DNA of 64,000 nt from Sycon ciliatum (taxonomy: Eukaryota; Porifera; Calcarea; Leucosolenida; Sycettidae). A model generated the notes under the pieces. The model was not told the DNA's origin, searched no databases, and saw nothing but the letters and a program-made list of their open reading frames with translations. Position numbers and translations under genes: made by a program. The stretch spans positions 11,329,947 to 11,393,946 of the forward strand of contig NC_088646.1 of the NCBI RefSeq assembly GCF_964019385.1. Reading direction: 5' to 3'. Shown piece by piece: positions 3,650-63,012 of this stretch. Position 1 is the first letter of the stretch. Each line of letters begins with the position of its first letter.

Positions 3650-5003
3650 GCGTTTGCATCAGGGTAATAGGGACGATTTCCACTACGGTACTGTGAGTGG
3701 TGTGCCGTGAGTACCCATGGTGATTTGCTCACGTGAGGGGCAGTTTTGGCGCGAGTGCATTCCGTGGCTCGTGCCGTACCACGCCGTGGCCTTTCCGGTG
3801 CCGAGGGCCTCTGAGGGGTAGAAATGGCATGCCGCGATATTCCGTGAGGTCGAATGCAGTGAGTAGTAGTGCGGCGCGCTGCCTTCATAACGTAACTTGC
3901 CTTCATCACGCTCTGAAAGCATGCATCCAAACTCTCAATTTCTCGCACGAGCCCATCCGTTTTTGCTCGATTCGTTCCAGTACCTACACAATCTCTGAAT
4001 TCTGGCGCGTGAACTCCAGTTCCGTACGAAAGTTCATTTCAAACTGGAGGGAAAGTGCGGTGTTTGATTTTCCGCAGTGCGCGGACTGCAGCTGAATGAT
4101 GTAATGAAGGCAGCGCGCCGCGCATCTGGCCCATAGAAAAGAGATCACAGTTGCATACTCTTTGTTTATGGACTCTTGCTACTACGGTAGTGCGATTTCT
4201 CGATTTCAACCCCCGGGTCAAGTGCAGTGTGTCACGTAAATGCTCCAGTCAATTTGCAGCGGTGTTCATGGTGGGTTGAAGCTCGACCCGGGTTGAACTC
4301 AAGACCTCAATCCGGGCTAAAAAGTAAAAACTCTCATGTAAACGCAGCCTGTTACCTTCCACAGGAGAGCCCCTCGATAGGCTTCCCCAGCTAGCTGTTG
4401 GTCAATCCTTGAACCAGGGAGTCGTAGGTTTGTACCACAGTACTCCCTGGTACAAACTTAGGTTCACTGGTTCATGGAGTGCATTCATTCAATATTGCGT
4501 GTGCATAATGTATTCCCAAACCAGACACAAGGAGACACAGAGTGAAAAACAGCGCATGTACTGACAAGTCTCAGCCTCCTGACAATCTGCTCTAAAAAGC
4601 ACGGTCAAAGACGTGTACCTTTGGACGGTTTGCAAGGATCAGTTGAATCCATGCGATGATGCTCCTGAACGAGGCCCTGGCTTGTGAGGGTTGTTGGGCT
4701 GGCTCGGGCAGACACCTCAGAGAGAAACCGATACCGTCGAGCAGAAAGGTTTGCTGGTATTGATCACTCGTACAGTATCTGCAACTAGAACAGAACTACG
4801 AGTGGGAGTGGACGCGTTTGATTGGAACACGAGAGAGACGAGAAATGTTGCTATTCATTCATGGTAAAATTTAATTTTCTTTCTTTTCCGTTTATGTTTC
4901 TGCACGTGACAGAAAAAAAGCCTTGGCTTTGTTTGGGCTTGGCTGACCTAAGTCCTTGCGCTGCAGTTTCTTATCCCTACCCCAACTTCAGTATTATAGG
5001 CCC
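3650..5003. other. spacer with decayed inverted repeats, no gene seen
   Basis: GC-rich sequence at about 3870-4130 begins and ends with GCGCGCTGCCTTCAT-type inverted ends. The interior of the element at 41525-41846 is related to it. At 4148-4176 a single CAAGAG-type end (CTCTTG preceded by TTTATGGA) is seen. A hairpin at 4414-4448 starts CAGGGAGTCG and ends CTCCCTG. No coding sequence is convincing. Confidence 0.4.
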
Positions 5004-5075
5004 TCCCATATGGTCTAGTGGTTAGGATTTCTGGTTTTCACCCAGACGGCCCGGGTTCAATTCCCGGTGTGGGAA
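5004..5075 (+). tRNA. tRNA-Glu (UUC)
   Basis: A 72-nt cloverleaf can be drawn. The acceptor TCCCATA pairs with TGTGGGA (one G-T pair), followed by discriminator A. The D-arm region contains an A box, TGGTCTAGTGG. The anticodon stem CTGGT/ACCAG-like arm holds loop TTTTCAC with anticodon TTC. The T-arm is CCGGGTTCAATTCCCGG with a B box. A run of eight T residues begins within 10 nt of the 3' end and serves as the pol III terminator. No intron. It is identical to the copy at 14944-15015. Confidence 0.93.
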
Positions 5076-5639
5076 ACCATAATTTTTTTTCTTCCTTTTC
5101 TGTTCAGCTAGATCAGCTCAGGACATCTCATCACCGTCTTTGCGTTTGTTTTTTGTTTTTGTTTTGTTTTGCTTTTTTAAAGTGCATGTTGTCCCTTTCC
5201 TTTTCACCTACATAGGCATAGGTTGAGACGCTGAGTAGATCTACGCATCCATTTTTTTTCATTTTCTCGATAGCAATACAGTTTGCCCTGCCGTGCTTTG
5301 GACCAGTAGAGAAGGAAATGAAAAGTTGCTCCTGACTTTGAACATCCCTGTATGAATCTAAAACTTTCAATGATGACCCATATCTGAGTGTTCAAGCTCA
5401 GGTAACTAAATTGCTTTACTTGGCGTTACATTGGTGGTGAAGACTTGAGCTTATATATGTAGAGCCAGTTACTAGCAAATCACTCAGCATGCCTCCGTTG
5501 ACTAAAGGCAATAATGACCTGGTGGAATCAGCTGCATCAATGTAAGACTTTTGTTAGTTTTTTTTAAAAGTTGAATTAACTAATTTAGTTTTAGAGACAG
5601 GGGAAAGTTCAGAGGTCTGATGAATGTTCTAGTGTTCTA

Positions 5640-5866
5640 GTGTCACAACGAAGAGGACAAACTGTACAGTAACCATTCTTTATTGAAGATACATAATTAC
5701 AACATAGTAACAAGCTTATGGTTGATAAATATGGTGGTAAAGACACACCTGGCAATATGGCGGTAAACACACGCCTGCCCACACACGCTCTCTAGGCTGC
5801 AAACTAGTAATTATACATCTTCAATACAGAATTGTCACCGCACAGTTTGTCCTCTTGGTTGCGATA
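5640..5866. mobile_element. foldback/MITE-like element, about 225 bp
   Basis: The left end has CACAACGAAGAGGACAAACT and the right end has the near-complement AGTTTGTCCTCTTGGTTGCG. The next bases (CTTTATTGAAGATACA and TCTTCAATACAGAA) also pair. There is no coding capacity. Confidence 0.55.
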
Positions 5867-5969
5867 TTAAAGTTGCTATCTCCAAAGCGCTTGTTCTAGT
5901 GCCACCCAATATTTAATATGGTATGTCTGTATAATGCGCATCAGAGAGTTGTACGCTCTATGGAGCCCC

Positions 5970-6330
5970 GGGGACGACTGCAATGGGCAGCCCGATAACA
6001 AACCTCATTGATTCAGTGCAGGGAGTCGTATAAACCGGTGGGCGCGCTCCTGATTCCTGAGGAGCCCGCTTGACTCAGCTTGATAGCTGTACTATCTTGT
6101 TGTGTCATCTACGGGCTGGAACGTTCTATGAGGTCCATGGTCTGTGCGACGTGGAGTATTTTGAATTGCGATCAAGGCCACAATCTACGACCCCAAGCAC
6201 GGCCCAGACCAGGAATGGTATACTCGGCACCTGTGAATCGGTCCTGCTCCAAGGGTGATGGCAATAGGCAACCCGGTAACAAGCCTCATTGCTTTAGATG
6301 ACTCAGCTTGACATCTGTGCAATATTTGTT
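5970..6330. repeat. degenerate direct repeat, spacing about 276 bp
   Basis: A segment reading GCAATGGGCAGCCCGATAAC near 5981 recurs with changes near 6259. A flanking ACTCAGCTTGA motif recurs near 6073 and 6301. This is an old tandem duplication or repeat remnant; I see no function. Confidence 0.4.
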
Positions 6331-6912
6331 TGCCATTGATTACTTTTCAAGGCATGAATAAGAATGCATGATTTGACAGACCATAAGAAAACAACCAGTG
6401 AGTCAGCTATCTATGACTGTTTCTCTTTGTAGTTAGTACTGAAACTTCTTCTTAGTGGTAGGACCATCCTTTGGGACATACTGACTGAGTTGTACCAACA
6501 AGCGTTGATATGGTTGTGTTGCGTTCCCTTCCCCTTTCACTGTCAATGAAGGCTTCTTTCGTATCTATTTTCGGACCTTCCTCGCCGTATATCGACAGTT
6601 GATGAGACTCATATCTGTTGTGCCCTTGTTTTGAGGTCCACACATCCCCAAAAACTCGAAACCCAGGCACATTCTGAAGTTGCCGCGATTTCTACACAGG
6701 GGTAACACGGGGGAATCATGTGGCACACATCGCTGGTGCGTTTGCAGGCCATGCCCTCTCCTAGGTGTATATGACTCCCTGGTTCAGTTCTATCTGCCCA
6801 TGTTGTTCTCATAGGTACTAAAACTCTCCGGTGTACAATGTATACTGCAAGACAGCTTGCAGGCTACGATCATTTACAGTATCATAACAGTCATAGCAGT
6901 TTTATACATGTA

Positions 6913-7101
6913 CAGTCAACTTCGCTAATGACGACTGCGGATATAACGACAATTCGCGAATAAACAACAGAATGTCCATGCCCAGAGCAAAGTCCCATCC
7001 AACTGTAATACATAATATGAGACTTCGGGTATAACGACACTTCGCGAATAAGGATACTTTTCTGATGCCCCGCCGAGTGTCGTTATAAGCGAAGTTGACT
7101 G
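6913..7101. mobile_element. pogo/Tigger-like MITE, 189 bp
   Basis: The termini CAGTCAACTTCGCT and AGCGAAGTTGACTG are perfect inverted repeats flanked on both sides by TA, the target duplication of Tc1/mariner/pogo elements. The interior repeats TATAACGACA and TTCGCGAATAA motifs. It is about 93% identical by eye to the element at 14555-14742, which lies in the opposite orientation. It ends about 90 bp upstream of the SPPL3 start codon. Confidence 0.85.
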
Positions 7102-7192
7102 TATGATATTATCTTATCTGCTTGTTTGTTGTGTGTTTACTTGTCTATGCTCTCACAGGGACGGTGCACTGTTTTCAGGGCCAAAACCTATT

Positions 7193-10100
7193 ATGGGCTG
7201 GAGGCTCTGTTTGGTGATGCTGGATGAATGCATCATGATGGCCTTCTGCGTGCTGACTATAATTGCTGCAGCGGAAAGGTACGCCTGATTTCCATCCACG
7301 GTGCTGGCCCGTGAAACTCGCCTCTGTGAACAAGATTAGATAGCGGCGGGCGCTGGGCGGCCCAGGCACTGTGAACGCTGTGTAGCGAGTGCACGTTAGC
7401 GCAACGCTACTTATTTTTCACGCGGCGAATGCACTGTAATGCAGCTTTGATATTTTTTGCACCAGGACTCCCCCAGGAGTGGGTCCCCGACCTGTAGTGC
7501 TCAGTCTAATCACTATCGGCGGAGGTGTCACCCTGCTGTGAAGGAAACCAGCTTAACATGTATGGATCCATACCACAACTGGGACCAAGTGGATCCAAGA
7601 GTCAGCATTATCATGGCTCCGACCTGGCTATGACATAGGACTTTCATGCCCGCTGACTGTTGATGGTGAATAAATTGTCTGCAAACTCGTCTCAGAAGTC
7701 GATGAGAAGATTTTACCCAAAGAAATTGCTGTGAACTTCTGCTCCTTCCATGCCATGTGTGGTTGCAAGGCTGTACCCACATGTATGTAGTGTCTAGATG
7801 GGGTTTGCAAGAGGCAAGCTATACTTGTAGCTACCGGAATGCCAGTGCCGCCGAACTCTAACGAATCCCGTCGTGCACTGCTCTGTCCATTCTCAGGTCC
7901 ATGCCAGAGTTCAAACAGAAAGAAGAGGCAGAGAAAACTGGCGAGAAGCCACCTTCTGATCCAAGTAAGTTTCCACTTCTTAAATGTTTCTGAGCTCAGT
8001 CAAGAATGCGGTTCTCCTCTTTCATTGTACGCAAGCTCTCATTATCAGTCTTCTTGTGAGCGTAGTGACTATGACGGCGTGTGCACAATGATAGAGGAGA
8101 ACAGCATTCTTGAATGGAACCAGACTGACACCATGTTGCTGGACCCTGCCGTCTTTGTTCCAAGTGTCTCTTTGTTCTTTAGTCCATGGTCCACTGTTGT
8201 CACTTTTCTTGCTCCTTAGTTGTGAAAAAGAAAACCAATTGTCTTTCCATGCGCGTGTTTTTTGCAGTTCCTACATTTCAGCTTGACGCAAGCCTCTTCC
8301 TTGTCATCCCAATCTCGTTCTCAGCATCTCTGCTGCTTTTCTTTTTCTTCTTTTCTCAACTGGAGTTTATAATGGCTATCTACATATCCGGTATGTGAAC
8401 AAAGTTTATGTTTGCTATTATATTCGGTGCAGTACTTGCTGAAGTGCTGGTGTATTTTACTTTGAATTACATTCCTTTTGAAATTGGCGGATCATGTAAA
8501 GTTGCCCTCGATGAAATGATATCTGACCCAAAGTGCATTATTTGGTGCTCTCAAGAGTCAACTTGCACAGCCCTTGATGCCCTGAGAGGGCCACAGATGC
8601 AGCTGGACGTACATTATGCACATGCACAAATGCAGTGCTGTAATCGGAACTGGTCCAGGATGCCAGTATTGCGCTTTTGGCTCGAATTTCACCGGGCACA
8701 ACTGTGCTTCTTCAAAGTAAGTCCAGGCTGGCACATGGAGTTGAGTGGTGTCCAAAAGGTCGCGTTTCACTTCTCAATATTTCTTGATTGTCTTAGTGTT
8801 GGATGTGTATGTATTTCTCCCTCCATGCCTTATGTTTCGGGTATCATTGCTTCTCTCTCCCGTCTGCCTGACCTGCTCTAAAAATGTGCTGGCTTTGTTA
8901 TGTTTTGACTGTCGCTTGATTGCTCAGCGTTTACCATGGTTGCGGTAGCCTTCTCTGTTCAACCAATCTGCTCGTGGCTGAGCTATGTCCTATGCGGCTT
9001 GACAACAGCCAGGTGCGTCATCATCTTTTTTCATTCATTTTATTTGATGGCTCATCTTCCAGGGGGAAGTAGATGGCGCTGATTGGGACAGTCTTACTAT
9101 GTGCAGACCGTGCTCCTGCAATCATGTGCTACTGGATACAGTCATGCGCTGTTAATTAGGGGTGAAAGTTTGCAGTAAAATCCCGAGTTCGAGTAACCAA
9201 ATTTTCTCTGATCGAATTTGGGTATTCTTCATCTCCTAAGAATCGTATACAGTCAGACCTCGCTTATCCGGTCCTCTCTTATCCGGATCCCTCGCCATCC
9301 GAAAGAAAATCGTTGGTTACCGATTTACAGCATACTCGTATGTCGTGCATACATGCAGTACGTGTGTTCAATTATCCTGTTCCCTCGCCTCCCGGATATT
9401 GTGGAAAAACGGATGTGTGCGGTTAAGCGAGGTCTGACTGTATAAAAGTCTGGAACTCACCCAGATAGTTTTCTTGTGACCTGTCAAATCGTGAATTCTG
9501 ATGCCCTGAGAAGTACTCAACGGAAAATAATTCACGGATGTGGCCTTGAGGCGCACCCTGTCCACGGAAATTAAGTATCTATAGATGTGTTCTTATGAAA
9601 TTATTCTCTTCTCTCTTTTTGTACAGTGTGGGCTTTCCAGTGCTAGGCGAAGTAGCGGTCACGACTCTGATTTCATCAGCCGTCGGGGTCTTTGCTGTAC
9701 TGGCATGGCTTGTAACAGCTCACTGGATTCTTCTCGATGGTAAGGTCTCTGAAATTACAAGTATTTTTATGACAAGGAATTCGATATTGGTTACTCTTTG
9801 AAATATAATTTTTGACTGCAGTGGCCTTGTAGAGATCCCTGCTGATATGGATCATATGGGTCCCCATTAATTTCTGCCGGTGTCTTCTGTCATTTCCAGT
9901 GTTAGGCATTGCCCTGGTCATCTGGATGTTGTGTCATATCAAGCTACCCAGCATACGCGTGGCTACCGCGCTGTTCGTTAGCTTGATGATCTACGATGTG
10001 TTCTGGGTAAGGCAATGCTACGTTTGTGTGCCCACTGGACTTTTTGTATTTCGCTCAGGGTGTTCCCTGCCAGTAGTCCATCTCCCCCATCCCTTTCCCC

Positions 10101-14517: not shown

Positions 14518-14548
14518 CAAGAGTCCATAACCTGTTTATGGACTCTTG
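14518..14548. mobile_element. 31-bp CAAGAG-family element with 7-bp target duplication
   Basis: The element starts CAAGAGTCCATAA and ends TTTATGGACTCTTG, with almost no interior. It is flanked by CTAGTAC at 14511-14517 and 14549-14555. See the family finding. Confidence 0.75.
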
Positions 14549-14943: not shown

Positions 14944-15015
14944 TCCCATATGGTCTAGTGGTTAGGATTTCTGGTTTTCACCCAGACGGCCCGGGTTCAA
15001 TTCCCGGTGTGGGAA
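14944..15015 (+). tRNA. tRNA-Glu (UUC), second copy
   Basis: All 72 nt are identical to the gene at 5004-5075, with the same anticodon TTC, A box and B box. It is followed by a T-rich terminator of nine T residues. The flanking DNA differs from the first copy, so the shared part is essentially the tRNA itself. It looks functional. Confidence 0.93.
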
Positions 15016-15090: not shown

Positions 15091-15172
15091 CAAGAGTACA
15101 TGAAAACCAGGGAGTCGTAAAATACTGGTATTTTACGACTCCCTGATAAAAACCTTTTTTCATGTACTCTTG
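15091..15172. mobile_element. CAAGAG-family element with an embedded CAGGG palindrome
   Basis: The outer ends CAAGAGTACATGAAAA and TTTTCATGTACTCTTG pair. The 7-bp flanks GAACTAG and CTACTAG match at five positions. Inside, 15108-15145 is a 38-bp CAGGGAGTCG...CGACTCCCTG palindrome with its own near 8-bp duplication (ATGAAAAC / ATAAAAAC). It is therefore a nested insertion. Confidence 0.75.
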
Positions 15173-16232: not shown

Positions 16233-23916
<7,684 letters not shown>

Positions 23917-24283
23917 GGTAACTCTAATTTAGGGGTGCCTTCAGACCACAACACCAAAAGATCGAGAAGCTAACAATGACCACGACAACCAGCGTCTAAC
24001 CAGTACTACTACAAGAGCTACCACAAGAGCTAGAAACTTTGAAAAAACTGTATCCTACTCTCAGTCTGACTTGCTAGCTTTGCTCAGTAGTTTCTGTTTG
24101 GAGACAGCTTTGTTTGAACATTTTTTGTGTGATGATCGGTCGATCGAACGATCGCCATTGTTCCTCACGTGTTCTTATGACAGAAGGCAAAACGTGTAGA
24201 TGTACGTGTGACCATGGTGACGTAAACGTGAAGTAACAGAGGCATGACGTAGCTACCACGTGCACTCAATGATCGATCTATGC

Positions 24284-24323
24284 CAGGGAGTCGTAAAATA
24301 CCATGGTATTTTACGACTCCCTG
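24284..24323. mobile_element. 40-bp perfect CAGGG palindrome with 8-bp target duplication
   Basis: The half-site CAGGGAGTCGTAAAATACCA is followed immediately by its exact complement. ATCTATGC lies directly on both sides (24276-24283 and 24324-24331). CAGGG ends plus an 8-bp duplication are the signature of hAT transposons; here two ends are fused with no interior. Confidence 0.8.
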
Positions 24324-24998
24324 ATCTATGCTGCTCGATCTGCATCCTGACGTCGACATGTCGCCTTTTTGCAGGATCAGCAGTCTGCTCTGTCAGATCC
24401 AGCAGCAGGACAGATCCTGGAGAGAGAGGAGGAGACGGATAGAGTGGAGGTCTTCTGGAGGACCCGGCCCCGAGTACGGGTCGGAGTCAGTTAGTGTGCC
24501 ATGATCATGACATGATGATAATGCTTGCATGCAGTCATAACCCGGCGTGAGTAGTCTGCCATTCTCAGTCCCAGACTGAGAATCCGGGACGACTCCCTGC
24601 CTCCCTGGTCTTCAGCCCTTGGCCTAGCTTGTGAGTTGCCCAGTGCGTATTGAGACTGTTTCAACATGGTTTAGTTGTGTCGCGAGCAAGATGGTTGAGC
24701 ACCGACTTGTCACCCGGATCTTCTTCTTGGATTCTTGAGTTGAGATGAGCTTCATCTTGAGCCGATGAAGTTAGACTTAGAACTCAATAGAAGTTAGAGG
24801 GATTAGAATGATAAACCTTGTTTTGCTCAAAACATGTTGTTGGTTGACAGCATGTTACAAGGCGGAGGACCACCGACGGTCCGTGTTCGGAAACAGTCAG
24901 TGCCCCTAACTAACGTTACTTCAACCATCCATGGTTGGTAGAGCCCCGGTCTTGCGACCATCTGAACTGTATGGGTGTTAGCCCCGGTATAGCGGTGG

Positions 24999-25147
24999 CG
25001 CAACAACAACAGCAGCAGCAGCAGCAACAACAAGAACAACAAGAACAAGAACAACAAGAACAACAACAAGAACAACAACAACAACAACAACAACAACGAC
25101 GACGACGACGACGCCGGACGACGACGACAACAACAACAACAACAACG
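24999..25147. repeat. (CAA)n / (CGA)n triplet microsatellite
   Basis: Triplets run from CAG/CAA through CGA back to CAA. ORFs of poly-Gln/Arg and poly-Val/Cys type across it are artefacts. Confidence 0.95.
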
Positions 25148-26700
25148 CACTTTTGATGTGTCCATAACATATTGAACAACACCAACGTGTAGATGGGGTG
25201 TTCCGACGTGGTGAAGGCCTACCCATGTCGGGCCTTGTCGGGAAATCACCAACCTCGTCTACAGAGAGCACCTTCTCACGACAGTGTCATGGTGGTGACA
25301 GTAACTGTTGTCAGCTGACGAGCTGAGAGAGGGACGCCATGGGCAGAAGTTGGAAAAAGAAAGAAAAGAGGAGAAAAAGAACAATTCAGAACAAATGCTA
25401 CAAAGTTTATGAGGACTGAGTAGAAGTTGATTCAAGCAGACATCCGGAGGAGCGAACAAAGAATACACGACGGACGGTACAACAAGAAGACAAAGGCAAC
25501 TCCCTAGTAGTAGTACATGTATTGAGGGTCAGAACAGGGGCTAACCGTGACCCATACGGTTGAACGTCGGGTCGGTTCAGATGGTCGCAAGACAGACCGA
25601 AGACCGAAACAGCTTATTCAATATTGATGCCGCATCATGCGGTAGTCCCTACCATGGCAAGGGACGGTCTACAATAGTACAAATCATGCACCTACTATAC
25701 TCGATCGGTTGAACTAACGGTTGCGTAATGTTGTTACTTGAGCCAAGTATTAGTTCAGGTCCCTATACATATACTCATCCCTTTATCTGCTATTGGAGGA
25801 TATGAAACATCTACCCAAGAAGTTGAAGAACGAACTTAGTACTTCCTCGCTATGGAGTGGTGTTGCGAATGTGGGCCAAGAGCGCACGCGCAGTACTCAA
25901 TGTGGAGAGGTGGACGATTCAGATTATTTTCGAATGCCGTTGATATGGCCGAGTTTGTCGCTATGACACCCCTCGGAATTTCCCACCTTGCTCCCCCTTA
26001 TGTTCTGGCTGCCCGTTTTGGATCCATCAGTTGCCTGATGATCGTAGAGATACGTGAAACTCGGAGTTGTGACAAAGCTTCCAATCTCTCTCTTGTGTAT
26101 AATTATTATTAATTATTATTACGACTAGGCTCAGCTGAGTTAGAAAGAACTACCAGTAGTTTGTTATTATTACTTCGAATTATCACTCCCTTAGTATTGA
26201 CTCACATAGATTTTGCCATACCTAAGCAGTCAAATATTCCTGCATCATTTGACTCCTTAGGGCTATATTCTGTCCCTGCGGGAATTTGCGGAAAAAACTC
26301 TCGAAAACTTGCAAAAGAAATTGCGGCAGAAAACAACAAAAATGCGACGAAAAGTGCGGAATGATGCAGAACTTGCCAGGAATTCGCGGAATTATTTGCA
26401 GAAAATTGCGGATTTGGGCCAAATCTCGAAATTTGTTGCATCGTTTATCTACTCCGAAGTAGTATGAGTCATACTGTGCAAGTAACCTACAGGATCATGG
26501 AAAGCACTGTGTGAAACACGTGAGATATAGTGCAGAAAACAACCAAAAACGTGGGAAATCGCGGATTTTGCTGAAAATCGCGGGTTTGGGCCAAAATCGC
26601 GAAATTTGTTGCATCCGTGGAATCGCGATTTCCTGGAGGGACAGTATATTGACCGCTTATATTTGACTCCTTTCTAGCGATTGAACACGTGCTTTGGTTA

Positions 26701-26988
26701 GTCGTGATAAATCTAATATTGACTTCGTAATTGGTCAGTATAGGAAATAAAAGACCTCGTAAAAAACCTCGGCTTCGCCTCGGTCTTTTACTCGGCCTTT
26801 ATTTCCTATATTGACCTCGTAGACCTACTCAGTCAATATGACAATATTGTATCTAATATTGACTGAGTCACGAGGTCAATATAGGAAATAAAAGCCGAGT
26901 AAAAGACCGAGGCGAAGCCGAGGTCTTTTACGAGGTTTTTATTTCCTATACTGACCAAGTACGAAGTCAATATTAGATTTATCACGAC
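26701..26988. repeat. 288-bp near-perfect inverted repeat (large hairpin)
   Basis: Arms of about 130 bp start GTCGTGATAAATCTAATATT and end AATATTAGATTTATCACGAC. Inside each arm is a smaller hairpin around GACCGAGGCGAAGCCGAGGT. It could form a long cruciform in DNA or a long hairpin in RNA. Confidence 0.85.
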
Positions 26989-27448
26989 AAACAGTCCGTA
27001 TTTCAAATTCCAAAACGATAACCTCATGAATCCCGGTTTTATGATTGCACAACCGTTGCACCACCACCTACTCTGAGTACTCATGCAGTGACAATGCTGC
27101 ACTGCCACTACTCACAGGCACCGTTCAACTGCGCCTAACTTGCCTAAGCAGTCAAATATAAGCAGTCAATATCCCTGAGGAGTGAAATATGCAGGAATAT
27201 TTGACTGCTTAGGTATGGCAAAAATCTATGTGAGTCTAAGGGAGTGATAATAGATACGTATTACCGGTAATACTTACTTACTACTTGAGCTCACTGACTT
27301 GTCAGTTTGAGCACTCTGGCAAGGTACGTTCGGGCCTGATTGGAAATTTTTATTTCCATTGCTATCAGGTTCGGCCTCATTTCCTCTGTGCTGCGCTGAT
27401 GAGTTCAAAAAGAACGAAACAGCATGCTGTCCGCAGATTGAGTACTTA

Positions 27449-28164
27449 GGGGCCGTCCGTAAATATCGATGTTTTTTTAGAGACGATATTGGTGCGTCTG
27501 GGGGGGAGGGGGTTTGAGCTATGTGCGTCTTTTCGAGCATCAGAAAAATATCGATGTAAATATCTGAAGTTTCGCCGATCCCTGCACGCGGACGTCTAAA
27601 TGGCTATACAAGAAATGTGAAACCAGCTTCCGTTCGCGGAGCTAAAACTCGCGACACGAGAACAAAATCAAAAATTGGAAGCTGTACGCCCATGGCGAAT
27701 TTCAAGAGCAAAAGAATGAGCTATTGATTGTGGAAATCGGCCGAACGATGCCTGCAGGAGACCTTTTTCAAGACGTAGAGGCAGTGCGAACAAACACGGA
27801 CGAACTCCACAAGAGTTTCCAGTCTTCACTGTCTGAACAAGGATTTGAAAAAATTCAAGCCCGAGCGTAGCCGCTTTGTCTACACCAGTACACATGGTAG
27901 ATCTACACGATGGCTGTGAGCACTGCAGCGCCAACCCGGTTCGCTCCCCCCAGGCGATGCAGCTATTGCGTGAGTGCGGCGGGATTTTCACGCCTACACC
28001 GGACCCTCAACATCCTGGGCACTTCATGAGCATCCAAAAAAATATTTAATATTGATTCCATGATCTAGATGTACATGTGCGTCTTCTGGGGGGAGGGAGG
28101 GGGGTCAAGGGAGAGAAGCACCAATATCGTCTCTAAAAAAACATCGATATTTACGGACGGCCCC
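27449..28164. mobile_element. foldback MITE, 716 bp, TTA target duplication
   Basis: Termini GGGGCCGTCCGTAAATATCG and the exact complement continue for about 45 bp through a T7 run and AGAGACGATATTGGTGC. TTA flanks it at 27446-27448 and 28165-28167. The interior has no clear gene. The features fit a Harbinger-type non-autonomous element. Confidence 0.8.
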
Positions 28165-28801
28165 TTACTACTTGTAAATGTAAGTATTAGTAATTTAGTT
28201 GTAGTTTAGTTCTTAGCTAAGCTAACTCAGCTGAGCCTAGTCGTGGCCATGGTAACGGCGCAGGCACCTGCTGCGTGTGATGAAACCTAGGAAACAGCGG
28301 CTATGCTCTGAACATAAACGCGCTAACCACGAAACTGTTATCTGGTTATCATGCATTTGTTACGTGCAGCACACCCTTCATGCATGGTACTATTGGTAGA
28401 TCCCCCTTTCAAACCAAACAAACTGCAAAGCGGGGATCAACAGCATACACGCATGAGTCATGTATGATGTAGCTCCTGTTCGACTGCTTTCACAAACAGC
28501 AGACTAGACGGTCAGTGTGTATCTATTTGTCAGCCAGGCCCATTTCTTTCAAACTGATCATTTCGCAACTGGCACATAGACGAATGTTGAATAAGCTGTT
28601 TCAGATTATTTCAACGCGTTACCATAATTGTACCTGTAGATTAAATTGACACGCTACCGGCAGTCTAAGAGCAAAGCTGTCCGCCTTTGCGAGCACAAGA
28701 GTCGTTATCCTTGCGTCGGAAAGTGAGCGAGTGTCGACAGTGTGAGAGCCTGCGCCTGGTGTTCATTCGAGTCACACAGACACTGGACAATCACCGCCAT
28801 C

Positions 28802-52986
<24,185 letters not shown>

Positions 52987-54177
52987 ACACCACAGAAAAC
53001 AGATTCAATTGCCGTATTGAATGAACACGGACAGGAGCTCTCCTGTCCCTTCATGCAGCTGCTATGACGAAGCGGTGCTTCAAACAAGTCATTTCATATG
53101 GCAACTGTTATTTTCTCTTCAATGAAATTTCACCGGACACGCGTCTACAAAGCACATAGCTGGCTGTTTACCCGGCCCCTGTTCTTGTCCCATGTGCATA
53201 TCCTAGTATTCTGTTTGTCCTTGACCAACAAAGGCAAGCAGTTGAGCTACACACATCATACTTTGGAAGTAGCGTAAATGCCATTAATTTCATGGTGGAA
53301 TACCATTCATTTGCTTCTATTTGCCATACCATGAAAGAGTACTTCAGGAATCAAAATAACTATAATGGATTGGAAAAAAATGGTGTTGAGGTGAGCTGGA
53401 GGTAGTTTTCTTTTCTTTCAGTCTTGCCGATTCAAGACATTTTATACCTATTATCATTTTATAAGTATTTGTTCATGGTTTTTGTTGGCCTGCACCATCA
53501 GAGTCAGAGAGAGAGAGAGAGTTGTCGTTTACGAGTCCATAACTCATTTTTTTTACAGTAAAACTGATGTTACAGAACGTATCGATATAGAGTGCAACAG
53601 CAGATTGCGGCTACGTGACTATCGAAAATGACGCAAACAAGGACCCTGACACCATTATCAAATGTATCATGACTACGCAGAGTGGCATGCTATGCTTGAT
53701 GTACTCTTGATTGTACACTGTACTGTACATCAGAAGGTACGGATACATAAACCGAAGTGTGAAATACCGCATGGGGTTCTGGACGCTGCAATGTACATGC
53801 ACGCCGGGTTTTTTTGACAGCATGATACAGTAAAAAAAACAATGTCACAGGTTGTACCAAGACCACACTCCAGTTGTGGATCAAGGCTTCTATGACTAAT
53901 CAACAATGAGATAGCCGGCTAATTCTACTCTCCCAAACTGCTGCGGAGTTGCATGCTCTGGTACTCGTGGCCATAGCAGCAATAGTAGCGCATGTAGTTA
54001 TCTGTTATTTCCATCCATAAAATATCTGGAAACGGATACTCGGAACAAATGGCTGCGAGGCCTTGATTATTGAGGTTGGTGGAGGATCTAGCTGGCCCTC
54101 ACACAAGCCCACACATGGTATCATGTCACTTGCCAAACACTGCTTCTTCGCAGCGTTTTCCAAAATATGTGCGAATG

Positions 54178-54182
54178 TGTGC

Positions 54183-54270
<88 letters not shown>
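54178..54270. repeat. (GT)n(GA)n microsatellite
   Basis: GT repeats run directly into GA repeats. Confidence 0.97.
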
Positions 54271-54271
<1 letters not shown>

Positions 54272-55106
54272 GCACTTGAACATGTGCAAGTTCCACAGCG
54301 GTGAGCACAGTCAACAAACCTCTGAACTACAACAGCATTGAGTAATAGTGCTCTAACATGTTGGGCTAGCTGCACACTTCTATCTTTGTCACCAGGGGGC
54401 AGTAATTTGTAGCCCCTGAAAAATCAACACTTTCGACCCGTTTTTAAACTCTGTGTGGCACGATTTGACTGACCAAACGCACACACTGCAGTGCAGCACT
54501 TGGTCAAAGTACTTCGAAGTACATCATTCAAGATAATGATGGGAGTCAAAGTTCTGATTTCCCAGGTAACCCAACTTGCAGAACAGGTCAGCATGATTTG
54601 CAAAAAGCAAAAGTGGCTAGTTACCCTATGACCGAGAATGCCGTAAGGTGCATGCGCACCATGTCAGCATACTGGCGGAGATATACATGTACATGTACCG
54701 TAATGTGTATGTACCGCACCGTACCGTATATGTTCCGTAATGTCGCGTATTAAAGCCGGGCTTATTTCTGTGGAAGCCAATGTCAGGGCTAGGCTATATT
54801 CACATCAGGCTTCTATTCAAACTGGGTGTTTCTATGTGTGTCAACACTAAAACCAAGCTTATGCGCCGACAGTGTAACTTGAAAATCAGGCTTCTATACG
54901 AGATAGACCTTAATACAAGACTCTACGGTATCCTACTACTACTACTGAGTACATGTACTACCCACCATATCACAATCTAACAAACATCTCTATAGCGAGC
55001 AAATGAAGACTACTTCGCGCCACGTGCATGTACTACAACAGCCTCTGGTCCACCAAGAGTGTGTGCACATTAGGACATTTGTGGAAGATGCGAAGTATAT
55101 TTCTAA

Positions 55107-55402
55107 AGCTGTGTTCACAACTGGCGCGTGGACGCGGTACGCTTGCGGTTCATGCGTGCCCAAACGCGGGCTCAGGCTTTCACAAAAACAGCAATCCGAG
55201 TCGTATTTAGCGCGTGGGACACCTTCGAGTACTAATTTTTTGACCCCGCCAGTCAAAGTGACTGGCATGTACTTCGAAGTACGCTGGTACGCGCGCTGAA
55301 TATTCCAACATATTGGAATTTCCATTTCGGCGCGTTTACGTACACATGGTGCCCCAAAAGCCAGCAAAAATACGCACAAACGCGCCAGTTGTGAACACAG
55401 CT
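55107..55402. mobile_element. Harbinger-like MITE, 296 bp, TAA target duplication
   Basis: Ends AGCTGTGTTCACAACTGGCG and its complement. TAA flanks at 55104-55106 and 55403-55405. The arms continue through CGTxxACG segments. No coding. Confidence 0.85.
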
Positions 55403-55895
55403 TAACGAATGTTACAGCAAAGCTTCCGAAGGGAAAGCAAATGCCTAGTCGTCAGCAGACGTACAATGATTATGCATCTGCCACTTGATTATCGTAACAC
55501 AGACATCCTACTGCACACGTACACGTAGCTTCACTATGACTGTATGAGTTACACACTCTTGGCTGGATTAGAGGCGGTACTAGTAACATGACGTCACCGC
55601 ATTCATTGCCAGTGCACTAGTAGTAGTATAGTGGCAAGCAAAGCAAGTCTTCAAAGACTTTTTTTAAAGTACCAGGCAGTGCAACACCCACAAACACTCC
55701 TCTATATCCCTCAAAGCATGATCAGGTCAAAACACCTCAATTCCACTACATCCATGATCGATTAATTTAAATGGGATACGCGAGGTGAATGCAGAAACGA
55801 CAATTTCATGAGCAATAAAAGCAGCTATGCGCCAATCATTTTCATGATGAAAACGAGCAGTAAAATATTTACAAAGTTTGGAACTACTAACAAGT

Positions 55896-56165
55896 TTATG
55901 CAGTGTACTTCTTTCCTTCATCCGCCTTGGTGTAACCCTTGCCAAATCTGCTGATCATGTGCTGCTCATATTCCTGTGGAGTAGGTGCCGGGCCATGGTA
56001 ACCGTATGGGTTTGGTGCTCGTGACTCGCCTCTTGCGTCCCGAGCTGCAACGTAGTTCTTGACATACTTCGACCTTGATACTCCATACATGACTCCAAGA
56101 GTCAGCGCCGTGTAACGAGCAGCTCTGATCAGCTGTGTAGGAGAGTTATAAATTGGAGTCGCCAT
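55896..56165 (-). CDS. ATP5ME: ATP synthase subunit e-like, mitochondrial
   Basis: An intronless frame of 89 aa. The N-terminal half matches the subunit e family: PIYNSPTQLIRAARYTALTL followed by GVMYGVSRSKYVKNY, with the GxxxG-type GVMYG motif that mediates dimer contacts between F1Fo complexes in the inner membrane. The family is short (about 70 aa) with one N-terminal membrane helix and a polar tail. Here the tail (PNPYGYHGPAPTPQEYEQHM) is unlike vertebrate subunit e and slightly longer. The start is the ATG at 56165; a GTG two codons upstream is ignored. The symbol rests on the N-terminal half only, so a divergent or lineage-specific paralogue is possible. Confidence 0.75.
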   Translation of the reverse strand: MATPIYNSPTQLIRAARYTALTLGVMYGVSRSKYVKNYVAARDARGESRAPNPYGYHGPAPTPQEYEQHMISRFGKGYTKADEGKKYTA

Positions 56166-57390
56166 CTCCACACGTCAAAGGCAGACACAGGCTTTACTGA
56201 ATACAGTATCTATGACTCCACAATCAGTGTCCAAGACTTGAGGAGGAAGAAGGACAACCTGGCAACAAGAAATCCCAGTGAGAAAAAAAAGTGAGATCTG
56301 GTGCAAAAAAATCACACTGCGCTGAAGCTCTAGCTCTCGCTATCGCGCTCCCGATCTTCAAGTCTTTTCTGGATCTGTGTCTCGTACTAGCGCACTTCAT
56401 CATGTCAGCGCACACGCTCGCGCAACGCCCAACGCGACCCGTTGAGGACGCGACGAGGCTTGACAGCGCGCAAAGCTCGATAGTACCTGCGCAGCTGCGC
56501 ATGCGTGAGGTAAAGTCGATAGTTTACTACTTTGTGGCTACGTGATACGGGAGGCGCAGGCACCGTGTGCCCCAAACATCCTGCGCGTGAGATCCTTCGA
56601 AGCGTCACGTTTTGAATGGTGCATGAAAGTGATCACACTTGAAGTTGAAAGTTAGTTGTGAACATTATTATTTTGAGAAAAAGGAAACTGTTTCAGTCAC
56701 CTACTACAGACTTGCTGTCGTATTTTTGGATGACTTGTACTGCTTGCATCCTGGTTCGTAATTTATTATTTAGTGGATTCTCAAGCCCATCTGATCCTAA
56801 CCGCATTGATAACAAACTGAGGCTACCAACTGGCAGGTATGGCATGGAAAGAGTGATCTAAGTTCGTTCTTTGCAGTCCCCTGGATACTGTAGCTGAAAT
56901 CGGTGAAAGTTCAGCAGGTGAAAGTTTTTGACGTTGTTAGAATTTCCTGTTCGCTCCAAGCGAAGGGGAGCTAGCTGGGAGAATGGATCAGAGAATCGTA
57001 CACGCCAGGCGTTCCGTCGCAGAAGCTCTTCGCCTGGACGATGAACAGCATTTGAAGGTAGAACAATTTTAATTCTTGTCCAATGTAATGTTGGAGCATG
57101 ATACCTGGTAAACAAGTTAATGGAAGAATATTTTTTAGTGAAACATTTCACTGTATACTAGTACCAATAACTGTAGATGGAAGTTCGTCTTATTCGTGAA
57201 GATACTGTTGTTCACCAAAGGGAAAGGAGTCGAAGCCATCTATGATCAACTGTAAAGTTACTAAAGTATCACTGTCGAAGAACATGCCATGTGTTCCCAA
57301 ACAACACGTGTTTGTCAACTACCGTACATGATTGACCCATGTGTAACGCCATTGCTGCATTTGAGACATGGCTCCATGTAGAGTATGAAC

Positions 57391-57426
57391 CAGGGAGTCG
57401 TCAGATACGTATTTGACGACTCCCTG
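57391..57426. mobile_element. 36-bp CAGGG palindrome with 8-bp target duplication
   Basis: CAGGGAGTCGTCAGATAC is followed by its complement with one mispaired position. GTATGAAC lies directly on both sides (57383-57390 and 57427-57434). Confidence 0.8.
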
Positions 57427-57443
57427 GTATGAACTACGGTCAT

Positions 57444-60904: not shown

Positions 60905-61059
60905 CGGGGAGTCGTAAAATATAATACGGTGTTTTACGACTAGTCCCTGCTAGTAGTGTCATGACACCAGTCATCAGTAGATCTGTGACTGTACTGCGGC
61001 CACATGTGGATCAGGGAGTCATCAAAATACAAGTATTTCAACTATTTGACGACTCCCTG
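60905..61059. repeat. two diverged CAGGGAGTC palindromes
   Basis: 60905-60949 (GGGGAGTCGTAAAAT ... TTTTACGAC then TAGTCCCTG) and 61012-61059 (CAGGGAGTCATCAAAATAC ... GACGACTCCCTG) belong to the CAGGG palindrome family but are imperfect. ATGTGGAT flanks the second, offset by 2 bp on the right. Confidence 0.6.
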
Positions 61060-61539
61060 ATATGTGGATCCTCGATCAAATGCATGTCAAGCAAGGAAGA
61101 ATGTTCTTTTTTCGAACATTTTTTCGTTCGTTGCAGCAGCATTTTGCACGTGTTCATCATGAAGTACAGTTGAAATGTTATGTGGGGCTGGACGGCGGGA
61201 AATTCGTAGCTGCTAGTGCTGCATTGCGATCTTCTACGAGTACTTGTAGTGAGCGTTGAAAGGTTTCTTCACCGAGCTCTGACGAGGACCAAAAGAGCAC
61301 AGGCCTCGCCAAACCCTTGCGGATAAGTAACCCAGCTCCACACGAGGCGTAGTCCTCCGCGAAGAGTGTTTGTTCTCTGAGAGGACTATGCTTTCTATGC
61401 CGACGGATTTTGAAGTGAGCTCAGCTTCAAACCTTGTCATGCGTTGTTCCCCTGAGCCATAGGCTGCGAATGCAGCGATCACGAACCGAACTTCATGGCC
61501 AACCAAGTCCTGAGTAAGTTCGTTTAGACTTGTGGCACA

Positions 61540-63012
61540 ATGACTCAATCGATCGTCGTGCAAGTGGGCCAGTGTGGCAACCAAATTGGTTGTCGTTTCT
61601 GGGACCTTGCTCTTCGCGAGCACGCCGCGAGCAATCCACGTGGGACCTATGATACAGCGCTGAGCAGCTTCTTTCGCAACGTAAACCCGAACCGTCGAGT
61701 CGGCGGGCCAGCTAGCCTGCCAGTGGGCGATGGGACGGGGAAGATTCGGTCTCTCAAGGCGCGAGCAGTGCTGGTCGATATGGAGGAGAGCGTAGTGAAT
61801 GAGTTGCTGCGCGGCCAACTGGGTGAGGTGTTTGACTGTCGCCAGAATCTGACGTCGATCTCCGGCTCTGGAAACAACTGGGCAGTGGGACATTACATGT
61901 ACGGTGATATGTACGCCGATCAGCTGGCCGAGTGCATCAGACGAGCGGCGGAGGAATGCGACTGCCTGCAAACGTTCTTCTTGCTTCACTCGATGGGCGG
62001 TGGGACTGGGTCGGGCCTGGGTACGTACGTGCTGGACCACCTACGGGATACATATCCCGAAGTGTATCGCTTTGCCCTGCCGGTGTATCCGTCAGTCGAC
62101 GATGACGTCATCACCTCACCGTACAACAGCTTACTGGCCACAAGTCACCTGACGGCACACGCCGATTGCGTTCTGCCCGTCGAGAACGAGTCTTTGGGTC
62201 GTATCACACAGCTTGTGTCGAAGAACTGCGGTGGGGGCAGTCTGGGCAGCGGCAAGTTGCAATCCAAGTCGCGATCGCAGCAGGGTGTACTGTCGTCAGG
62301 CGTTAGCTCTAGTCATGGAAGTGCAGCCGAGGTGAAGTCAAAGCCGTTTGACGACATGAATAATATCGTGGCAAACCTCATGCTGAATCTGACCAGTTCG
62401 TCGCGGTTCGAGGGTTCCCTGAACGTGGATCTAAACGAGATCACAATGAATCTAGTGCCGTACCCACGCATGCATTACCTAGTGTCGAGTATGGCACCGC
62501 TGTACTCCCTGCGCGATGTTGGCATGGGACCCAGGTCGATGGACCAGGTGTTCAGCGACGCCCTGTCACGCGACCACCAGCTGATGCACGCCGATCCGAA
62601 GAACAACGTCTACCTGGCGTGTGCCATGCTGCTGCGTGGCAAGGTGCAGATGTCGGACATTCGCCGCAACATCGAGCGCATGCGGCCCAGCCTGTCGTTT
62701 GTACACTGGAACGATGCTGGCTGGAAGACGGGCTTGTGCTCGGTACCGCCGGCCGGCCAAGCTTACTCCTTGCTTTGCCTCGCCAATAACACGTGTATTC
62801 GGCACACGTTCCGTAACGTCCACCAGCGCTTTCGCAAGCTGTACCAGCGCAGGGCCCATCTGCACCACTACACAACTGTTGCCGGCATGGAAGCTGCAGA
62901 GTTTGACACTGCGTCCGAGAGCCTGCTATCATTGATTGATGAGTACGAGCAACTGGACGTGGCGTCACGGCAGCCAGAACACCTCATACCACCTCTTCAG
63001 ATTTCCAAGTAA
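61540..63012 (+). CDS. TUBE1: epsilon-tubulin, intronless
   Basis: Tubulin isoform of centrioles and basal bodies, needed with delta-tubulin for stable triplet microtubules. It is 490 aa (human 475). The N-terminus MTQSIVVQVGQCGNQIGCRF and downstream SLKARAVLVDMEE, ISGSGNNWAVGHYM, the GTP-binding tubulin signature GGGTGSG (153-159), DDVITSPYNSLLA, PFDDMNNIVANLMLNLTSS, DLNEITMNLVPYP and RRNIERMRPSL are all diagnostic of the epsilon class. A Ser/Gly/Lys-rich insertion at about 228-268 accounts for most of the extra length; human TUBE1 has a loop in the same place. The single exon contrasts with AK7's 23 exons. It may be a retained retrocopy that replaced the original, or simply intron loss; no poly-A remnant or target duplication was recognised. 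Confidence 0.97.
   Translation: MTQSIVVQVGQCGNQIGCRFWDLALREHAASNPRGTYDTALSSFFRNVNPNRRVGGPASLPVGDGTGKIRSLKARAVLVDMEESVVNELLRGQLGEVFDCRQNLTSISGSGNNWAVGHYMYGDMYADQLAECIRRAAEECDCLQTFFLLHSMGGGTGSGLGTYVLDHLRDTYPEVYRFALPVYPSVDDDVITSPYNSLLATSHLTAHADCVLPVENESLGRITQLVSKNCGGGSLGSGKLQSKSRSQQGVLSSGVSSSHGSAAEVKSKPFDDMNNIVANLMLNLTSSSRFEGSLNVDLNEITMNLVPYPRMHYLVSSMAPLYSLRDVGMGPRSMDQVFSDALSRDHQLMHADPKNNVYLACAMLLRGKVQMSDIRRNIERMRPSLSFVHWNDAGWKTGLCSVPPAGQAYSLLCLANNTCIRHTFRNVHQRFRKLYQRRAHLHHYTTVAGMEAAEFDTASESLLSLIDEYEQLDVASRQPEHLIPPLQISK

Follow-up and report, generated by a model that had tools for sequence, protein, structure and literature searches.

Palindromic units in the analysed window

The analysed stretch of the Sycon ciliatum genome, comprising 64,000 nucleotides and called the window in the following, contains very short palindromic units of two families (Table 1). 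Those of the first family have ends starting with CAGGG and sharing the core CAGGGAGTCGT, and those of the second family have CAAGAG ends (CAAGAGTACATG). Palindrome centres with arms of at least 16 bases and at most one mismatch were found nine times in the window, a count which is unfiltered for simple repeats, whereas none of 20 first-order Markov simulations produced any.

Table 1. Positions of the micro-elements, their duplications and longer related elements in the window.
Feature	Position	Strand	Flanks and remarks
CAGGG-family micro-element, perfect 40-bp palindrome	24284..24323	.	exact 8-bp duplications both sides
Left 8-bp target-site duplication of 40-bp palindrome	24276..24283	.	ATCTATGC
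Right 8-bp target-site duplication of 40-bp palindrome	24324..24331	.	ATCTATGC
CAGGG-family micro-element, 36 bp	57391..57426	.	near-perfect palindrome
Left 8-bp target-site duplication of 36-bp unit	57383..57390	.	GTATGAAC
Right 8-bp target-site duplication of 36-bp unit	57427..57434	.	GTATGAAC
CAGGG-family micro-element, 38 bp, nested in another micro-palindrome	15108..15145	.	ATGAAAAC/ATAAAAAC, 7/8
Host of this insertion, 36-bp CAAGAG-family palindrome	15091..15172	.	own 7-bp flanks 5/7
Degenerate CAGGG-family micro-element, 35 bp	4415..4449	.	no clear duplication, 3/8
Diverged CAGGG-family micro-element, 38 bp	29125..29162	.	6/8
Diverged relative, 45 bp	60905..60949	.	without duplication, 1/8
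Relative, 48 bp	61012..61059	.	4/8 in register
763-bp element with CAGGGAGTCGT-like ends	6019..6781	.	6/8
Second-family micro-element, 31-bp palindrome CAAGAG...CTCTTG	14518..14548	.	exact 7-bp duplication CTAGTAC
Longer second-family element, 267 bp, CAAGAG ends	21746..22012	.	7-bp duplication CTGACAG
Longer second-family element, 303 bp	51553..51855	.	7-bp duplication GTATCGT

The 40-, 36- and 38-bp palindromes were found exactly where a preliminary description of this DNA had placed them, together with the flanks it had given. Both diverged relatives that it had named are present as well; the one of 45 bp is without a duplication, and for the one of 48 bp the duplication appears in a shifted register, ATGTGG being exactly duplicated if the unit boundaries are set to 61010-61061. 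The 35-bp unit, the diverged 38-bp unit and the 31-bp CAAGAG palindrome had been overlooked. For the nested 38-bp unit an empty site can be inferred: removal of the insert and of one duplication from the host leaves 36 bp, which are identical at 33/36 positions to an uninterrupted copy elsewhere in the genome (L001:1388-1423).

Copy number, duplications and target preference

About two thousand such short units of 22-58 bases, mostly palindromic, are present in the S. ciliatum genome. The pattern CAGGGAGTCGT-N(6-36)-ACGACTCCCTG, corresponding to 28-58 bp, matched 1978 places in the 538-Mb assembly and a 22-31-bp version matched 344, with no match for the reversed control of either pattern. A search of viral contigs likewise gave no match. 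One single exact 38-bp palindrome is found at 435 places, and in this commonest unit, as in the 36-40-bp units, 0-4 bp lie between the two arms of approximately 19 bp. Longer classes are scarce, with 53 places at 59-89 bp, 24 at 90-120 bp and 14 at 222-252 bp. Many of these matches are small units lying side by side or nested, and at most places of the two longest classes one end or both consist of a whole small unit, as judged from 80 listed letters. Since only copies with exact 11-bp ends (CAGGG family) or 12-bp ends (second family) were counted, the sample is skewed toward young copies.

The flanks of 93 CAGGG-family matches were checked, namely of the three perfect 40-mers, of the 50 places listed for 28-58 bp and of 40 of the 50 listed for 22-31 bp (of the other ten, five were already in the first set, one lay inside L040 and four were not retrieved); the 93 include one overlapping pair in L040, and as all listed places are on contig C1 this sample is not a random draw. 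An exact 8-bp duplication was present in 49 cases, agreement at 7/8 positions in 12 and fewer in 32. Under random pairing of flanks exact 8-bp agreement is expected at 0.05%, so the observed repeats, which are flush with the unit ends, are about a thousand times more frequent. The longest flush exact repeat measured 8 bp in 49 cases and 7 bp in two; in the remaining 42 it ranged from 0 to 4 bp, so that lengths of 5, 6 and at least 9 bp did not occur. All three genome copies of the perfect 40-mer have exact and mutually different duplications. Among the first 15 exact 38-mers sampled, four were without a duplication of 7/8, and of 20 further consecutive ones 16 had an exact 8-bp duplication and four one of 7/8, so that 31/35 sampled exact 38-mers have retained duplications of at least 7/8.

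The 61 duplications with at least 7/8 agreement fit the target nTnnnnAn, with T at base 2 in 51/61 and A at base 7 in 49/61 (binomial P of 4e-19 and 7e-18, respectively); a bias toward G1, A7 and C8 was also seen. The expectation in the preliminary description that genome copies would have 8-bp duplications was thus borne out, at least 7/8 positions agreeing in 61/93 and then in 20/20 copies. Flanks were seldom common to copies in the samples examined, which argues against segmental duplication.

Probable mobility of the short units and alternative explanations

These observations point to TIR-only non-autonomous transposons of hAT type in which the 36-40-bp unit is itself mobile, a reading to which we give a probability of roughly three quarters; the units of 36-40 bp probably move as such. 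Weighing against it are the 32/93 matches with less than 7/8 agreement, the 17/48 units whose arms differ in bases 12-16, the failure to find an autonomous hAT with CAGGGAGTCGT ends at 70 loci and the long ends needed by other hATs (see below). Short terminal inverted repeats (TIRs) starting with CAGGG or CAG are a hallmark of hAT elements. Such TIRs were demanded by the search pattern here, and both ends are flush with the duplications, the copies representing insertions that arose independently. The units are short and non-coding, have TIRs and duplications and reach a high copy number, features which are those of MITEs. The hAT-type reading had already been put forward for the 36-40-bp units in the preliminary description and is supported, with the nTnnnnAn preference as an independent additional feature.

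According to the proposed mechanism, the unit would consist of two abutting, oppositely oriented ends, each some 19 bp long with the core CAGGGAGTCGT, and a hAT-type transposase acting in trans would cut at both CAG/CTG ends. Joining of these ends to staggered cuts 8 bp apart would then produce the 8-bp duplications at nTnnnnAn targets. Such a transposase would have to accept the short unit as its substrate, requiring only the terminal 12-19 bp without subterminal repeats, and synapsis may be achieved by strong bending or by extrusion of a cruciform which brings both ends next to each other. Palindromic relatives of greater length seem to shrink by deletion between short central repeats, which could supply tiny units.

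Such shrinkage could also be the whole explanation, if longer palindromic MITEs were inserted with normal 8-bp duplications and their centres were afterwards removed at the insertion site through replication slippage or hairpin deletion; in that case the tiny forms would never have been mobile. In line with this, one 40-mer shares its arms with a 79-bp palindrome present at two places and differs from it only in lacking the segment enclosed by two CTAG repeats. The 27-mer corresponds to the 38-mer without an 11-bp segment lying between two GTA repeats and is paralleled by a 29-mer of the second family (listed three times), and centres differ among units that otherwise match. However, the 38-mer is present in 435 identical copies, compared with just three of the 40-mer with its different centre and with 53 places for the entire 59-89-bp class, and the few places of the 90-120 and 222-252-bp classes mostly contain small units themselves (again judged from 80 listed letters). 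With duplications retained at 31/35 of the sampled exact 38-mers, in-place conversion would need to have been fast, nearly complete and directed largely to one product, and we consider it unlikely for units of all sizes. Restricted to the 22-31-bp forms, with the 36-40-bp units mobile and 27-mers, 24-mers and the like derived from them, in-place deletion has about an even chance. The 3-bp microhomology within the 38-mer accounts for the 27-mer, and the proportion of exact duplications is similar in shorter and longer units (22/45 in the 22-31-bp range, 27/48 in the 32-58-bp range). On the other hand, the 16 retrieved sites of the 27-mer have 16 distinct left 8-mers, ten of them exactly duplicated, and 3/4 sites of the 24-mer have an exact duplication, as would also be expected of mobile units of 24-27 bp. 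The 22-31-bp forms with their 22/45 exact duplications may thus have been derived from longer insertions by subsequent deletion, and some identical short forms could arise from recurrent in-place deletion.

The symmetry and variable centres, without any bending problem, would likewise be accounted for if two separate half-sites were inserted 8 bp apart, as in tagmentation, and their inner ends were then end-joined, the palindrome being made anew at each site; the Hydra transposase hATx-6 does join free 20-bp ends in vitro (PMC8721813, excerpt). However, if half-sites had paired at random, 10 of the 48 units of at least 32 bp would be expected to be A/C hybrids at base 12, but none was (A/G and A/T arm pairs occurred once each), and a single exact centre is found 435 times. 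Bases 12-16 are identical on both arms in 31/48 units and differ in 17/48. The absent hybrids and the recurrent centre mean that the halves would need to come from one donor and be rejoined precisely, which makes this route very improbable. A further alternative takes the palindromes as conserved binding sites, or as spread by segmental duplication, with incidental flanking repeats. In its favour, flanks are shared in L009/L010 and L102/L103 (two other flank matches spanned just 16 and 23 bp), and in the second family both the element and its 7-bp repeat are identical at loci L187 and L190. For most sampled copies this explanation is excluded by the thousandfold excess of flush exact 8-bp repeats and by the lack of shared flanks among the 20 further exact 38-mers; as a general account its probability is negligible.

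Relation to known transposons and search for an autonomous partner

Cut-and-paste transposases must grip both ends of one DNA together, and the hATs studied so far need long ends. In common with hAT elements (Hermes, Ac, Tol2) and hAT MITEs, the micro-elements have 8-bp duplications and short TIRs. Hermes requires between 140 and 190 bp of its left end in cells, and Tol2, Tag1 and Ac about 100-200 bp (PMC10368747, excerpt), whereas a micro-element measures about 38 bp as a whole and offers no space for a long subterminal region; the whole 38-bp element is thus shorter than the roughly 100-200 bp per end needed by the studied members, a need which is not a formal criterion of membership. Hermes prefers targets with T2 and A7, and hATx-6, which is more active on 20-bp than on 30-bp ends in vitro, has a target bias (G1, A6/A7, C8) resembling the G1, A7 and C8 of the micro-elements (PMC8721813, excerpt). 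Its substrates were, unlike a single 38-bp unit, separate oligonucleotides or 30-bp ends around lacZ (PMC8721813, excerpt). The 38-bp unit being found 435 times, with duplications of at least 7/8 at 31/35 sampled sites, suggests that the need for long ends has been relaxed in one animal lineage. This would open a minimal transpososome to direct testing, and a transposase needing just about 19 bp per end would serve as a tool. Every insertion gives the genome a potential hairpin plus 8 bp.

Among the top-ranked open-access literature matches, no earlier report of nuclear TIR transposons shorter than 50 bp was recognised. Mariner-like elements have TA as target. The human mariner-derived MITE Made1 is similar in being non-autonomous and a near-perfect palindrome of two TIRs with almost nothing between them, but it is mariner-like and measures 80 bp with 37-bp TIRs (PMC1784062, excerpt), whereas the micro-elements measure 22-58 bp, with arms of about 19 bp in the commonest unit and 8-bp hAT-like duplications. 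The GC42 clusters of yeast mitochondria are likewise palindromic, mobile-like units of 42 bp flanked by short direct repeats, but these are mitochondrial and GC-rich with AG or ACT repeats (PMC4478555, excerpt), in contrast to the nuclear micro-elements with 8-bp hAT-type duplications. As EDTA discards TIR candidates below 80 bp (PMC6913007, excerpt), the size of 22-58 bp lies below the range accepted by at least one standard pipeline, and similar units may be widespread and uncounted.

hAT genes are present in the genome (150 scored PF05699 matches of 422 candidates), and two copies of one 2.68-kb hAT family are flanked by exact 8-bp duplications. A confirmed CAGGGAGTCGT-type end was found at none of 70 hAT loci, comprising 30 loci with about 1.5 kb on each side of the hAT domain, several from one family (L052-L081), and 40 with 1 kb downstream of it (L122-L161); a few weaker matches, differing at two or more positions, remain, e.g., at L063:2568 and L076:2148. 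In the family of L052-L061, TAGGGGTG is found at the 3′ boundary in 5/7 copies displayed. Neither the window nor loci L001-L051 contained a match to the hAT reading frames of L052-L081. L122, the nearest match, where CAGGAAGTCGT lies next to a fitting 8-mer, was rejected as partner, since its copies L163 and L164 place the element end at TAGTGCTGAAACGAGTAC. The 763-bp element of the window was likewise dismissed as parent, its nine matches being itself, as sole full copy, and eight partial ones; no Pfam transposase domain was found in the six frames of window positions 5000-9999. A 430-bp pair with exact duplications (L005:945-1374) is most simply explained as an AGGGACC-ended element inserted in a micro-palindrome rather than as a parent element.

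The second family and the smallest forms

The second family was found at 155 places in the genome. Of 20 copies checked, 12 had exact 7-bp duplications, 15 agreed at no fewer than 6/7 positions and none had an 8-bp duplication. The Galileo/1360/P superfamily also has 7-bp duplications, with the palindromic target GTANTAC bearing T2 and A6 (PMC4168063, excerpt); with ends of CAAGAGTACATG and no coding copy known, the second family is only a candidate member of P. On a speculative view, the reduction of two families, with 8- and 7-bp duplications, to micro-palindromes would mean that the genome favours minimal forms regardless of the transposase. We tentatively consider that units of 24-27 bp, with 12-bp ends and 0-3 bp between them, might be complete transposons, although this is doubtful. 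DNA of this length being unable to loop, transposition would proceed either through an extruded cruciform in which each strand supplies one hairpin end, or with two molecules that are held apart from each other. The commonest centre seen in the micro-palindromes of both families is ACCGGT.

Copies and insertion sites of the CAGGG family

Re-checking the window sequence confirmed the palindromes of the preliminary description, among them the perfect 40-mer at 24284-24323. The 538-Mb assembly (313 contigs) was then searched for such units, with both 11-bp ends required to be exact and the reversed pattern as control. Units of 28-58 bp were found at 1978 places and units of 22-31 bp at 344 (the two classes share the sizes 28-31 bp), whereas the control gave 0 matches in every size class. 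Longer classes were small: 53 places at 59-89 bp, several of them nested or tandem small units, 24 at 90-120 bp and 14 at 222-252 bp. Most places of the latter two classes had an entire small unit at one end or at each end (80 letters of each listed) and hence represent neighbouring units rather than long elements; a few, among them C7:4896816 (90 bp) and C2:39545204 (239 bp; C, assembly contig), may be true longer relatives. The commonest unit, the 38-mer CAGGGAGTCGTAAAATACCGGTATTTTACGACTCCCTG, has 435 exact copies. Behind the common 11-bp core several arm types occur (AAAATAC, CAAATAC, ATAGACC and ACTCAAAC). A sister type of 38 bp, with ends CAGGGAGTAGT in place of CAGGGAGTCGT, was seen at two fetched loci (L037:219-256, L005:1557-1594).

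The proposed 8-bp duplications were borne out in genome copies. For 93 matches (three perfect 40-mers, all 50 places listed for 28-58 bp and 40 of the 50 listed for 22-31 bp), the flanking 8 bp agreed exactly in 49, at 7/8 in 12 and at fewer positions in 32, while 8/8 agreement was observed in 0.05% of 8556 left/right flank cross-pairings. Exact repeats that directly abut the ends reached a length of 8 bp in 49 matches, 7 bp in two and 0-4 bp in 42; lengths of 5, 6 or more than 8 bp were absent among the 93. The next 20 consecutive exact 38-mers had 16 exact duplications and four at 7/8, and no flanks were common to different copies among these 20. Together with 15 exact 38-mers sampled earlier (eight exact, three at 7/8, four fewer), this makes 35 copies, of which 24 have an exact duplication and 31 agree in at least 7/8. 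At duplicated sites, position 2 was T in 51/61 and position 7 was A in 49/61, the same preference that is reported for Hermes (PMC8721813). Duplications, flush repeats, T2/A7 preference and the unshared flanks (n = 20) together indicate that most sampled copies are independent insertions with hAT geometry.

The copy at 15108 is nested in a 36-bp palindrome of another family. When the insert is taken out together with one duplication, a 36-bp unit remains that is identical at 33 of 36 positions to an uninterrupted copy (L001:1388-1423), the closest approach to an empty site obtainable here from one genome.

Proposed movement of the small units and the likely transposase

Small forms could also be products of deletion within longer units: a 79-bp palindrome offers a route to a 40-mer via deletion between CTAG repeats, and the 27-mer equals the 38-mer after deletion between GTA repeats. 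However, longer relatives are too few to form a standing pool of parents, and a single exact 38-mer predominates, the comparable 40-mer being more than 100-fold rarer (3 copies); both observations count in favor of the small unit itself moving. The arms point in the same direction as to origin from a single donor: among 48 units of at least 32 bp, the two arms agreed in the type of their first base in 46, and A/C hybrids were absent (0 versus 10 expected), so that each insertion most likely derived from one donor unit. Bases 12-16 were identical between arms in 31 of these 48, the remainder differing often by small changes. Exact duplications were about as frequent at 22-31 bp (22/45) as in longer units (27/48). 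Units of 36-40 bp likely move as such; those of 22-31 bp may move or may be deletion products.

The agent is likely a hAT transposase. hAT domains are abundant in the assembly (150 scored matches to PF05699), and one 2.68-kb hAT family has exact 8-bp duplications in two copies (ATTATAGG and GCCAAAAG) and a 660-aa frame, read in copy L122+L162, although its ends are not those of the CAGGG family. Small size is an obstacle, given the long ends required by studied hATs, reported as between 140 and 190 bp of the left end for Hermes in cells and about 100-200 bp for Tol2, Tag1 and Ac (PMC10368747). A favorable precedent is hATx-6, reported to join 20-bp ends in vitro more actively than 30-bp ends (PMC8721813). 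Six units of 24-40 bp, folded as single DNA strands, all formed full-length hairpins, and we propose that cruciform extrusion would bring both ends side by side.

The nearest TIR-only palindrome in the literature compared is Made1, with 80 bp (PMC1784062). EDTA is described as discarding TIR candidates below 80 bp (PMC6913007), a threshold that would hide the present class from annotation. In a limited open-access literature search we recognized no description of TIR transposons smaller than 50 bp from nuclear genomes, and we regard the CAGGG family as an extreme and new form of non-autonomous hAT element.

A second family and further features

Units of a second family (CAAGAGTACATG...CATGTACTCTTG, 28-58 bp) were found at 155 places in the whole assembly (control 0). 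Among the first 20 listed, 7-bp duplications were exact in 12 and at least 6/7 in 15, with T2 and A6 each in 13/15; none had 8-bp duplications. Cross-pairing of flanks gave 2/380 exact agreements, both due to loci L187 and L190, which have identical element and duplication and may be one duplicated locus. The window also holds second-family elements of 267 and 303 bp, each with exact 7-bp repeats. The different stagger, 8 versus 7 bp, implies that two transposition systems have both yielded micro-palindromes in this genome. Despite different ends, the commonest listed unit of both families has the center ACCGGT.

Coordinates of features in the window and at fetched loci (L)
Feature	Position	Strand	Remarks
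Diverged CAGGG-family relative	4415-4449		additional to the preliminary description
Diverged CAGGG-family relative	29125-29162		additional to the preliminary description
hAT family, 2.68 kb	L163 (C3:30912312-30917312), L164 (C9:9525294-9530527)		ends TAGTGCTGAAACGAGTAC, not CAGGG-family ends
2346-bp element	L070:813-3158		14-bp perfect TIRs TAGGGGTGAAACGA, duplication GTTTAAAC
Second-family micro-palindrome, 31 bp	14518-14548		exact 7-bp repeats
Epsilon-tubulin gene	61540-63009	+	single-exon frame, 490 aa; 99% identical to EukProt entry scpid50670, an identifier in the style of Sycon ciliatum, which suggests a calcareous sponge as the probable source
Open frame	38499-39323	-	presumably resembles part of TMEM19
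Open frame	41865-42392	-	presumably resembles part of TMEM19
Two tRNA genes	5004-5075, 14944-15015		equal Rfam scores
Large foldback-type inverted repeats	26697-26992, 34706-35133, 51574-51842		arms 56-97 bp, 83-96% complementary
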